A stretch of 8,854 nt of DNA from Holophagales bacterium (GTDB lineage Bacteria > Acidobacteriota > Holophagae > Holophagales > Holophagaceae): the NCBI GenBank assembly GCA_031281385.1, contig JAITFL010000160.1, forward strand, positions 1 to 8,854. The letters are read 5' to 3'. Numbering within the stretch: the first letter of the stretch is position 1; every line of letters begins with the position of its first letter. A program made the position numbers and the translations under genes. Under the pieces are notes generated by a model. That model did no database searches. It had not been told where the DNA came from and saw only the letters and a list, made by a program, of their open reading frames with translations. This document shows, one piece after another, positions 1,248 to 6,406 of the stretch.

Positions 1248-1270
1248 ACCAATTGCAAAAAGTCGAGCCA

Positions 1271-1294
1271 CTTGCAAAACGTCAGTTTTGCAAG
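1271..1294. repeat. Perfect 10-bp inverted repeat, 4-nt loop, after HD-GYP copy 1
   Basis: The arms 1271-1280 (CTTGCAAAAC) and 1285-1294 (GTTTTGCAAG) pair perfectly around GTCA. The unit starts 24 bp after the stop codon of HD-GYP copy 1. It is AT-rich and no T-run follows, so it is a poor intrinsic terminator; it could block 3' exonucleases or bind a protein. An imperfect direct repeat of its left half lies just before it (TTGCAAAAAGTC at 1253-1264 against TTGCAAAACGTC at 1272-1283, 11 of 12 identical). Confidence 0.7.
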
Positions 1295-1420
1295 TCACCG
1301 GATGTGTAGGCTGCGCCCGACCGGAGCAGGCTCTGGCGTGAAACACTGAAAACAAGCAAGTTACAAAACCCAGCCAGAGCCAGCGGAAGGTCGGGAGCAG
1401 ACGTACCGCTGGGTTTTGCA
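1273..1420 (+). other. Candidate structured RNA element with nested and competing helices between the HD-GYP genes
   Basis: Reading the + strand as RNA, a nested set of exact helices is possible: 1273-1280 with 1413-1420 (8 bp), 1316-1322 with 1389-1395 (CCCGACC/GGTCGGG, 7 bp) and 1330-1337 with 1373-1380 (GCTCTGGC/GCCAGAGC, 8 bp). Three alternatives compete. The left strand 1271-1280 can fold locally with 1285-1294. The segment 1364-1374 pairs perfectly with 1408-1418 (11 bp), which would cross the 1330-1380 stem as a pseudoknot. The segment 1380-1386 also pairs with 1406-1412. The pairings are seen in the sequence; that they form an RNA is inference. It does not match the c-di-GMP riboswitch consensus as I remember it, and the best promoter for the next gene lies downstream. 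It could therefore be a 3' UTR of copy 1, a separate small RNA, or a DNA repeat element. Confidence 0.4.
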
Positions 1421-1439
1421 TGAAACTCAGTCCACTTGG

Positions 1440-2772: not shown

Positions 2773-3753
2773 TCACATAAATCCCTTTTCTCTCATCCAA
2801 TCATCGTTGTAGATGGTGCTCAGGTACCTGCTTGCGCTGTCCGGGAATAGGGTAACCACTGTGGAGCCGGGCGGCAGGCCCTTGGCGATTTGCAGTGTGG
2901 CGAAAATGGCGGCTCCGCTCGAACCCCCAGCCAAAAGGCCTTCCCGCTTTGCAAGCTCCCTAGCGGCCAAAAATGCGATGCGGTCTGCTACTTGCACCAT
3001 GTCATCTATTACAGAAAAATCCGCAGTCCCTATCAAAAATTCGTCTCCAAGGCCCTCTAGCAAATATGGGCTTGGCTCGCCGACTTTTCCCGTTCTAAAG
3101 TATTCCGTAAAAATAGACCCCTCAACGTCAACGCCGACAATCTTGATGTTTGGGTTTTTCTCTTTCAGGAAACGCCCAACGCCGGCGATGGTCCCTCCGG
3201 TACCCATCCCCGCAACAAAAGCATCTATATGGCCCTCCATCTGCTCCCATATCTCTGGGCCTGTGAATCTGTAATGTGCCTCATTGTTTTCCCTGTTGTT
3301 GTGCTGGTCGGGGAAATAGCAGTTCGGCAGTTCCTTTGCAAGTCGCGGCGTGATGTTGTTGTAGCTGTCGGGGTGGCTGGGAGGCAGGCTTGCGTCAACC
3401 CTGTGAACGTCCACGCCCAATATTTTCAGTTGGTCTAATTTTTCTTTGCTGGTGCGGTCCCTCACGACGGCCTTTAGTCCGTATCCCTTTTGGATGGCCA
3501 TCAGTGCAAGCCCCATAGCGGTGTTGCCGCTGGAGTTTTCAATTATCAGGCCACCGGGCCTTAATCTCCCATCTTTTTCTGCCTGCTCGACCAGATACTT
3601 GGCTATGCGGTCTTTGCTGCTGCCCATCGGGTTCAGGAAGTCCAGCTTGGCATAGACGTTTGCGCCAATGCCTTCTGCTATCTTGTTCAGCCTGACCATC
3701 GGCGTCTGGCCGATCGCGTCCATTATGCTTTCAAATCTGCGTGGGTGCGCCAT
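2773..3753 (-). CDS. PLP-dependent cystathionine beta-synthase / cysteine synthase family enzyme
   Basis: 326 residues, fold type II PLP enzyme. Expected chemistry is beta-replacement on serine or O-acetylserine, with homocysteine or sulfide as nucleophile. The Schiff-base lysine is Lys47 in GSSKDR. The asparagine loop is SSGNT (74-78), the phosphate-binding loop GTGGT (184-188), and GGSSGA at 276-281 and PDSASRYLS (304-312) close the cofactor site. The stretch ASLPPSHPDSY, the EGLG at 233-236 and the end DDWMREKGF resemble the catalytic core of cystathionine beta-synthase more than CysK. There is no C-terminal CBS-domain pair, so it would lack S-adenosylmethionine control. Ser46 before the lysine (often Val) and SSGNTAMG (often TSGNTGIG) are slightly unusual; another nucleophile or donor is possible. 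The start is supported by GGAG seven bases upstream. It is divergent from fabZ across the hairpin-rich region and appears monocistronic. The exact substrate cannot be read from sequence. Confidence 0.85.
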   Translation of the reverse strand: MAHPRRFESIMDAIGQTPMVRLNKIAEGIGANVYAKLDFLNPMGSSKDRIAKYLVEQAEKDGRLRPGGLIIENSSGNTAMGLALMAIQKGYGLKAVVRDRTSKEKLDQLKILGVDVHRVDASLPPSHPDSYNNITPRLAKELPNCYFPDQHNNRENNEAHYRFTGPEIWEQMEGHIDAFVAGMGTGGTIAGVGRFLKEKNPNIKIVGVDVEGSIFTEYFRTGKVGEPSPYLLEGLGDEFLIGTADFSVIDDMVQVADRIAFLAARELAKREGLLAGGSSGAAIFATLQIAKGLPPGSTVVTLFPDSASRYLSTIYNDDWMREKGFM

Positions 3754-3771: not shown

Positions 3772-3800
3772 TTAAGATTAACAGGGGCTTTTGATTTCAA
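3772..3800 (-). promoter_or_regulatory. Weak promoter candidate for the PLP enzyme gene
   Basis: On the minus strand TTGAAA (+ strand 3795-3800) is followed after 17 bp by TCTTAA (3772-3777). The -35 is good and the -10 poor (3 of 6). It sits about 20 bp upstream of the start codon, between the start and the first large hairpin. Position and spacing are reasonable but the match is marginal. Confidence 0.25.
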
Positions 3801-3802
3801 TT

Positions 3803-3838
3803 CTAATTCAAAATTGCGTCCGTGCAATTTTGAATTAG
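3803..3838. repeat. Perfect 15-bp inverted repeat with 6-nt loop
   Basis: The arms 3803-3817 (CTAATTCAAAATTGC) and 3824-3838 are exact reverse complements around GTCCGT. It lies at the end of the cascade nearest the PLP enzyme gene, about 50 bp upstream of that start codon. It is AT-rich and lacks a terminator T-tract, and could form a cruciform or bind a dimeric regulator. Confidence 0.8.
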
Positions 3839-3891
3839 TCGGCTGCGGCGAGGCAAGCTCGCCTGGCCTCACGAAATGCTACGCACTTCGG

Positions 3892-3910
3892 GCGCGACAT
3901 CCTGTCGCGC
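3892..3910. repeat. GC-rich 8-bp perfect hairpin, TCC loop
   Basis: GCGCGACA (3892-3899) and TGTCGCGC (3903-3910) pair around TCC. It directly abuts the next hairpin, which starts at 3911, and follows a 6-of-7-pair hairpin ending at 3890. It is the most stable short stem of the cascade and the one most like a repetitive extragenic palindrome. Confidence 0.75.
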
Positions 3911-3959
3911 ATTCCAAGTTCTAAATATAATCATGGCTGATTCTATTTAGAATTGGAAT
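3911..3959. repeat. Long imperfect palindrome (21 pairs) with TGGC loop
   Basis: Arms 3911-3917/3953-3959, 3919-3927/3944-3952 and 3929-3933/3938-3942 stack into one long hairpin. The only interruptions are a bulged G3918 and a T3928/C3943 mismatch, and the loop is TGGC (3934-3937). A perfect TATAAT (3926-3931) lies inside the left arm and is a possible -10 for fabZ, but no convincing -35 stands 16-18 bp upstream of it. Confidence 0.75.
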
Positions 3960-3962
3960 GAC

Positions 3963-4012
3963 AAATTGGCGATTTGCCGCCGCCAATTTTTGCAGGGCCA
4001 CAAGCGGCAAAT
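3963..4012 (+). promoter_or_regulatory. Two mutually exclusive hairpins upstream of fabZ
   Basis: Stem A pairs AAATTGGCG (3963-3971) with CGCCAATTT (3981-3989) and runs into a T5 tract (3987-3991). Its entire 9-nt loop, ATTTGCCGC (3972-3980), is an exact reverse complement of GCGGCAAAT (4004-4012), making stem B. The two can form only in alternation, or partly together as a pseudoknot. The element ends 34 bp before the fabZ start and would lie in its leader if transcription starts upstream. Pairings are observed; a regulatory switch is inferred. Confidence 0.45.
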
Positions 4013-4046
4013 ATTGTGCGAAAATGGATTTTTGGGAGAACCATTA

Positions 4047-4523
4047 ATGACCGAGAACGAGGCACCGCAGTCAAAAGTGATTGACATCCAAGGCATCCAA
4101 AAACTATTGCCCCACCGCTACCCCATTCTGCTGGTGGACAGAATTCTGGATTACGAAAGGGGCCAGTGGATCAAGGGCATCAAAAATATTTCGATGGGAG
4201 AGCAAGTGTTTCAAGGGCACTTCCCCAAACAGCCCGTGTTCCCCGGCGTGATGATAGTGGAGGCCATGGCCCAGACTGCCGGCTGCCTGGTGACGCTGGA
4301 CATCCCGAACCCAGAAGAAAAAGTCATGTATTTTATGAGCATAGATGGAGTCAAGTTTCGCAAGCCTGTTGTGCCGGGCGATCAGATGGTGATGGAGGTA
4401 AAAATCCTAACACTGCGAGGCAACATCGCCAAGATGAGAGGCGAGGCCTTCGTTGAAGGCACCAAGGTAGCCGAGGCCGAATTTATGAGCATGGTGGCAG
4501 ATGCAAAGGGGAAGGCCGAATGA
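4047..4523 (+). CDS. fabZ: 3-hydroxyacyl-[acyl-carrier-protein] dehydratase FabZ
   Basis: 158 residues, the usual FabZ length. It dehydrates 3-hydroxyacyl-ACP to trans-2-enoyl-ACP in the cytosolic fatty acid elongation cycle and competes with LpxA for 3-hydroxyacyl-ACP. LPHRYPILLVDR (21-32) is the family N-terminal signature. The hot-dog active site is GHFPKQPVFPGV (57-68) with catalytic His58, followed by EAMAQ with Glu72. The start is ATG 4047, preceded by GGGAG eight bases upstream. An in-frame TTG at 3966 would extend the protein back into the hairpin region and is unlikely. The gene ends in an ATGA overlap with lpxA, so the two are translationally coupled. The lpxD gene that usually precedes fabZ is absent; a long hairpin-rich region is there instead. 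Confidence 0.97.
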   Translation: MTENEAPQSKVIDIQGIQKLLPHRYPILLVDRILDYERGQWIKGIKNISMGEQVFQGHFPKQPVFPGVMIVEAMAQTAGCLVTLDIPNPEEKVMYFMSIDGVKFRKPVVPGDQMVMEVKILTLRGNIAKMRGEAFVEGTKVAEAEFMSMVADAKGKAE

Positions 4524-6320: not shown

Positions 6321-6406
6321 TGGTGCCCGCGAGCAGACTCGAACTGCTACGGCTTGTGGCCACCACCCCCTCAAGATGGCGTGTCTACCAATTTCACCAC
6401 GCGGGC
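6321..6406 (-). tRNA. tRNA-Leu, anticodon GAG
   Basis: The reverse strand folds as a class II tRNA. The acceptor stem GCCCGCG (6400-6406) pairs with CGCGGGC (6325-6331). The discriminator A and CCA are encoded (6321-6324). The D-arm contains AAATTGGTAGAC. The anticodon stem CCATC/GGTGG encloses loop TTGAGGG, with anticodon GAG on + strand 6370-6372. A long variable arm (GGC-CACAA-GCC) follows, then the T-arm AGCAG-TTCGAGT-CTGCT. It reads CUC and CUU leucine codons. It follows secG on the same strand with a 72-bp gap; secG followed by tRNA-Leu(GAG) is also found in E. coli. Confidence 0.97.

Follow-up and report, generated by a model that had tools for sequence, protein, structure and literature searches.

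A palindrome row between cysK and fabZ in a Holophagales genome is mostly one MITE, most likely derived from an IS630-type element

Introduction

Prokaryotic MITEs are described as intergenic elements shorter than 500 bp that carry direct repeats as well as terminal repeats of 4-30 bp and form stable stem-loops (PMC10969869). RUP of Streptococcus pneumoniae, a repeat of 107 bp in 108 copies at TA targets, is proposed to be mobilised by IS630-Spn1, to which its terminal repeats and TA targets link it (PMC2229807). In the overview given by the same source, bacterial repeats other than CIR form one stem by end-to-end pairing, whereas CIR, from Caulobacter and Brucella, has two arms and a GANTC motif, with no terminal repeat listed there and an uncertain duplication (PMC2229807).

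Here we analysed 8,854 nucleotides of DNA from a Holophagales bacterium (contig JAITFL010000160.1, hereafter the window), in which a row of hairpins separates cysK from fabZ. Five of these hairpins form a copy of a dispersed repeat, named family A, whose other copies were found in G001, the 2.1 Mb draft genome of a relative. Family A resembles prokaryotic MITEs in all the traits listed above and differs from those described there in that each of its ends is a palindrome in itself and a row of dissimilar hairpins lies between them (PMC10969869). Like RUP, it is a small, intergenic, high-copy repeat with stops in all frames and ends like those of a resident IS630-type element; its TNA duplications and five side-by-side hairpins set it apart from RUP as described (PMC2229807). 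It shares with CIR the dispersed repeat with separate stem-loop arms, and differs from the CIR of that account in having five hairpins, terminal repeats and duplications (PMC2229807). Short intergenic palindromes in high copy number are also features of REP and BIME sequences as portrayed in the sources cited (PMC3733652, PMC2817692), from which family A departs by its target duplication and terminal inverted repeats, with no Y1_Tnp match in the draft G001. Family A is a MITE, most likely derived from an IS630 element, and its distinctive traits are the TNA duplication and the five side-by-side hairpins.

Results

A first-pass annotation of this DNA had reported six inverted repeats in a row, and all six were found at the same positions within 3803-3989. 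The flanking genes diverge, as it had said, the minus strand encoding a cysK-like PALP enzyme (2773-3753) and the plus strand fabZ (ATG at 4047), in a neighbourhood that also holds two DUF3391/HD-domain genes, lpxA and an era-like GTPase gene. Folded as DNA, 3803-3989 reaches −58.8 kcal/mol against −26.1 ± 3.1 kcal/mol in dinucleotide shuffles (z −10.6), with 0 of 200 shuffles as good, and RNA folds of a wider region gave z −6.5 on the plus strand and z −6.8 on the minus strand. The pairing density is not matched by shuffled sequence, and the observation of a row beyond chance stands. A tRNA-Leu (gag) gene lies elsewhere in the window (6321-6406, minus strand), with the era-like gene on one side and a secG-like gene, named by eye, on the other.

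Five of the six hairpins belong to one mobile element, a MITE of 164 bp on the plus strand (3795-3958), which matches dispersed G001 copies from end to end. It is bounded by the terminal inverted repeats TTTCAATTCTA on the left (3795-3805, plus strand) and TAGAATTGGAA on the right (3948-3958, minus strand), which, compared as TTTCAATTCTA and TTCCAATTCTA, match at 10 of 11 positions; at the left end, likeness to the right end of an IS630-type element runs on to about 3817. Identical TGA trinucleotides flank the element at 3792-3794 and 3959-3961, forming a target-site duplication of the TNA type, a rule taken from the G001 copies. The window copy thus has the terminal inverted repeats and target-site duplication of a MITE, and with stops in all six frames and a length well within 500 bp it also has the size and the lack of coding capacity.

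Hairpins 1 and 5 are end palindromes, the former (3803-3838) with perfect 15-bp arms and the latter (3912-3958, the inverted repeat running from about 3911 to 3959) with 15-bp arms at 93%, a further 8 bp outside them, and the terminal repeat on each arm. Versions of TTYCAATTCTA occur at the left end (3795-3805) and on both arms of hairpin 5 as one common terminal repeat, contradicting the earlier statement that all arms are unrelated in sequence. The core modules between them are the GC-rich hairpin 2 (3847-3863), with 6-bp arms that are longer in the fold; hairpin 3 (3872-3890), with eight arm positions, including one A/C mismatch in the window, which is fully paired in most of 26 aligned G001 copies; and hairpin 4 (3892-3910), with 8-bp arms. 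A 19-base piece of hairpin 2 recurs inside an unrelated repeat, family B, of another genome, G005.

Hairpin 6 (3963-3989, 9-bp arms) stands in the fabZ leader, beyond the right target duplication, and the G001 copies stop short of it. It is no part of the mobile unit, and the six hairpins do not form the single unit they had been taken for. The window has three perfect 9-bp hairpins, hairpin 6 included, where five shuffles averaged 0.0; the RNA fold of the fabZ leader that holds it (3962-4046) is at chance level (z −0.54). The 9-base loop of hairpin 6 (3972-3980) is fully complementary to 4004-4012, 23 bases downstream in the same leader.

Relatives were drawn from an LpxA search of a species collection, in which the closest of 10 loci were L001 (79%), from the MAG Holophagales bacterium Mcx344_bin57 (genome G001), and L004 (77%), from the MAG Holophagaceae bacterium Nt197P3bin133. 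Going by the isolate labels, these could be termite-gut bacteria. At L004 the cysK-fabZ gap measures 126 bp and the palindromes are absent. Subtracting the element and one copy of the duplication from the window gap (293 − 164 − 3) leaves 126 bp, exactly the L004 length, and since the L004 gap has diverged and its flanks align only loosely, the comparison is one of equal length. With flanks that can be aligned loosely, L004 represents the site without the element in a relative.

Among the four genomes behind L001 to L004, G001 alone gave significant matches to the palindrome region, and did so at many places. The best 40 of 108 first-look candidates, when scored, matched a stretch of about 3794-3959 at about 70-88% identity, and at least 41 dispersed stretches, some cut by contig ends, were extracted from 38 loci. 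The element is thus present in many copies in one genome, a count that refers to the relative and not to the window organism. No family A copy was found in any of 59 other relatives beside G001, with up to 14 candidates scored per genome; a distant-mode search of the element region against plasmids and phages gave no match, nor did two core patterns searched in viral contigs. When 26 full-length G001 copies were aligned with the window, a single module order held throughout. Most copies measured either about 163-166 bp or, with an extra GC-rich module, about 196-200 bp; they started with TTCCAATTCTA or TTCCATTTCTA and ended with TAGAATTGGAA.

The pattern TNATTCCAWTTC, which joins the terminal repeat to TNA, matched G001 126 times, and its reversed form did so twice. 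We then searched G001 for the 11-bp terminal repeats with up to two mismatches and paired ends 150-220 bp apart, setting aside 11 of 36 pairs that lacked TNA on one side or were mispaired. The duplications were identical in 22 of the 25 pairs with TNA on both sides, against 9.9 on average and at most 19 in 10,000 permutations, and the left trinucleotides of these 25 copies were TAA (14), TTA (6), TCA (3) and TGA (2). Three of the pairs set aside (L030:2816, L035:1538 and L104:846) may be true copies with decayed duplications. L094 and L095, which are among the 25 and have identical duplications, have the ends and left hairpin in common with the other copies and a different core. The end pattern failed to pick up L038, whose right end contains a gap; this copy is nonetheless included in the copy alignment.

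Three further arrangements in G001 were noted by eye. A family B-like element is nested in a family A end palindrome at a TA (L028:1342-1636). At L042:1713-1759 the loop of the right end palindrome has the opposite orientation to that in other copies, as though this hairpin had turned over. At L062:316-760 a family A copy is directly adjoined by a shortened IS5-type element whose own ends are GTGGACATGAG..CTCATGTCCAC.

Insertion sites could be joined in 27 cases, of which 7 lay in tandem, 7 in convergent and 5 in divergent gaps, 3 could be classed on one side only, and 5 were spanned by a frame; for this classing, overlapping frames were reduced to the longest, and at five sites one side has fewer than 400 bases. 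At 22 of the 27 sites, including the three with one side classed, no kept frame of at least 100 aa crosses the junction. The five frame-spanned sites, which include the window, have no ATG-started frame of at least 100 aa across the junction either, the first ATG lying past it in the window, L025, L034 and L035, and L021 having no ATG; genic insertion at five of the 27 sites was dropped on this ground. Because tandem, convergent and divergent gaps are all used, the divergent setting of the window is not special.

A candidate parent was found in G001 at L113 (contig C130), where an unpaired terminal repeat leads inward to 65 residues of a transposase C-terminus that matches Pfam DDE_3 (E 4e-6; 27.1 bits, under the curated cut-off of 28.6). 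In three places (contigs C130, C161 and C102) such a DDE_3-like C-terminus runs straight into ..TAGAATTGGAA|TNA. Homologues on plasmids comprised 47 records, and among the 15 listed, 7 are annotated as IS630 family or IS630-like, at 43-60% identity. At L107 (contig C44), an IS-like left end, TCA|TTCCAATTCTAAATAGA, is followed by MARLPRGHEVLEKAQKLLEKAVNADDLRM, an ATG-started frame that over 29 residues looks similar, as judged by eye, to the N-termini of the plasmid homologues. The whole parent IS is on no G001 contig, its two ends lying at different contig ends, and we infer that the L107 left end and the transposase right end are those of one IS.

When the ends were compared beyond their common 11 bases, the IS right end agreed with an element end from G001 at 16 of 19 positions, a score reached by 2 of 100,000 shuffles, and with the window left end at 10 of 12, reached by 62 of 100,000. 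Over 17 bases the window right end is identical to the IS-like left end; inside the repeat it agrees with the IS right end at only 11 of 19 positions. Fits over 25 bases gave the window left end 21 with the IS right end versus 15 with the IS left end, and the window right end 20 with the IS left end versus 18 with the right, while in G001 the IS right end gave the better fit to either element end (21 and 22, versus 15 and 19 for the IS left end), so that element ends and IS ends do not pair cleanly. All of these comparisons were picked after the sequences had been seen.

The element thus has ends in common with a resident IS630-type element of G001, itself seen in parts, while its duplication is not the TA of IS630-derived MITEs but TNA with a varying middle base. 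Because the duplications are TNA, our claim is of an IS630-like parent and not of membership in the TA-target group; judged from its ends and partial transposase, that parent is most likely an IS630-family element with a TNA target in G001. Among six plasmid loci examined, three (L197-L199) have ends TTA|TTCCATTTCTAATTC or TTCAATTTCTAATTC with TTA on both sides, an arrangement that a TA rule also fits, and three (L195, L196 and L200) have no such ends.

A search of G001 turned up seven short palindromes (L032 and L097-L102), 43-51 bp long and with TNA on either side. Six of them consist of an element end folded back upon itself: four versions of hairpin 5, of 47 bp, standing apart (L032, L098, L101 and L102), and two versions of hairpin 1, of 51 bp, with both terminal repeats (L099:2259-2309 and L100:988-1038). 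The seventh, L097 (43 bp), has a different interior, and the palindrome at L099 also ends a 376-bp pair with matching TTA flanks and may be the end of a larger element; two of the seven are thus not clean solo ends. An eighth short palindrome (L111:936-982) lacks TNA on one side. Unlike in full copies, the TNA flanks were inverted in five of the seven and direct in one, a small number from a search that required TNA, which hints at inverted duplication instead of transposition. These solo end palindromes suggest that the element is composed of two of them around GC-rich hairpins. In G001 loci not picked for the element, a small and mostly coding sample, there was no clear excess of palindromes (2 hairpins in 21.9 kb versus 0.8 in shuffles).

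Of 1501 cells scored over 27 copies and 56 base pairs, 24 are unpaired and 98.4% pair. In 4 of the 56 pairs a double change preserved pairing, in a single copy each time, where shuffling predicts 0.5; none of 500 shuffles reached four, a test inflated by the relatedness of the copies, and slid structures reached at most two. The RNAalifold covariation term, +0.24, is not favourable. This amounts to a slight sign, weak as evidence, of stem compensation, by selection or by template-directed correction. The first-pass annotation had held that arms drifting in relatives without compensation would speak against its reading, and the copies answer in both directions, with the double changes on one side and the covariation term on the other.

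Discussion

We consider it very probable that the feature is a copy of a non-autonomous transposon, a MITE, that depends on an IS630-type transposase and inserts at TNA. The possibility of a mobile palindrome family, which had been raised among others for this locus, is borne out: terminal repeats, 3-bp duplications and dozens of copies mark the five hairpins as a single element that moves together. The element, made of two end palindromes, each with a TTCCAATTCTA-type terminal repeat, around a GC-rich hairpin core, would have integrated into a TGA site in the cysK-fabZ gap. An IS630-family transposase made elsewhere in the genome would recognise the terminal repeats, excise the element and insert it at TNA sites with duplication of three bases; on sequence grounds, movement in trans by such a transposase is probable. 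Because the IS ends differ inside the repeat and the end palindromes are self-complementary, some step would have made the ends palindromic, and inverted duplication of IS ends or template-switch correction may have been that step. The hairpin row is probably a by-product of the element's origin, tolerated between genes, and we found no support for a host role of the element.

Two other ways of moving such a repeat were weighed. The IS1031 group of the IS5 family uses TNA targets, and six IS5-type fragments are present in G001 (four DDE_Tnp_1 and two DUF4096); on the TNA duplication, an IS5-type parent was at first thought likely. At the six fragment loci, however, no terminal repeat of their own was found within one mismatch, only two single matches at two mismatches, and at L062 the repeat belongs to the adjacent family A copy; some fragment loci stop at a contig end, beyond which one IS end may lie. 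The end of the IS630-type transposase carries the repeat in three places, and that the element belongs to an IS5-family (IS1031-type) transposase is highly unlikely. A second reading would have REP- or BIME-type palindromes moved by a RAYT (Y1_Tnp) single-strand transposase, and one hairpin had been likened to REP sequences; the short GC-rich hairpins, the many dispersed copies and the intergenic position would fit. Y1_Tnp matches numbered 0 in G001, 0 in G002 and 1 in G005, all drafts, and G005, which has the match, yielded no family A copy (14 of 75 and 40 of 83 candidates scored). To our knowledge, IS200/IS605-type and RAYT transposases make no target duplications, whereas this element has 3-bp duplications as well as terminal inverted repeats, and a REP origin is scarcely credible.

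The stability of the folds and the four double changes that no shuffle reached are what a structured non-coding RNA or cis-regulatory leader with a fold under selection would show. Yet no Rfam match was found at the hairpins up to E = 1, the one match over the whole window lying elsewhere and far below its gathering score, and the copies sit in tandem, convergent and divergent gaps alike. Compensatory cells, 4 of 1501, are also outnumbered by the unpaired ones, and the covariation term is unfavourable, leaving the structured RNA once proposed extremely unlikely. The remaining proposal, a process that makes or maintains palindromes as such, fared differently in its parts. As locus-specific de novo palindrome making by replication template switching, with the row made in place, it draws on end palindromes that are self-complementary inside though the two IS ends differ, and on the mostly inverted flanks of the short palindromes. 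The same row, in the same order, at many places with target duplications points instead to movement as a block, and making in place is hardly tenable; because the row recurs as a block, no palindrome process at the locus is needed. What stands of the proposal is the self-complementarity of the end hairpins together with the few double changes, and template switching may be the origin of the founding element.

The MITE reading explains the striking row of palindromes and calls for no new process at the locus. It would also provide a worked case of MITE assembly, in which IS ends were made self-complementary around hairpin modules, with the end palindromes as possible intermediates. An IS630-type element with TNA instead of TA duplications would widen the known target choice of this transposase family, and dozens of copies in one genome make the origin of the palindromes a testable question. 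A bolder generalisation, which we regard as unlikely though worth stating, and the less likely for the fit of both G001 element ends to the IS right end and for the two short palindromes that are not clean solo ends, is that in this bacterial family hairpin-templated replication repeatedly turns IS630-type ends into perfect palindromes, which would either stand apart (47-51 bp, often with inverted TNA) or pair around captured hairpins as new TNA-target MITEs, the rows in families A, B and C being products of this one route.

Family B is a hairpin-rich repeat of G005 (L114-L133), about 125 bp long with TATAGC..GCTATA ends. Its 19-base motif occurs at 37 places in G005 (each E 0.57), and all 20 places fetched carry the repeat, some cut by contig ends, at 91-99% identity to a query built from the copies. 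G005 had been a candidate carrier of family A, with 75 first-look candidates, and was rejected when the common part proved to be only this 19-base hairpin motif within family B. Family C, a further hairpin-rich repeat unrelated to family A, has a copy of 164 bp in the window (1265-1428) between the two HD-domain genes, with ends GAGCCACTTGCAAAAC..GTTTTGCA..CTC and AGTC on both sides (1261-1264 and 1429-1432). Matches to family C at E 0.01 numbered 36 in G005, 17 in G006, 7 in G001 and 3 in G002.
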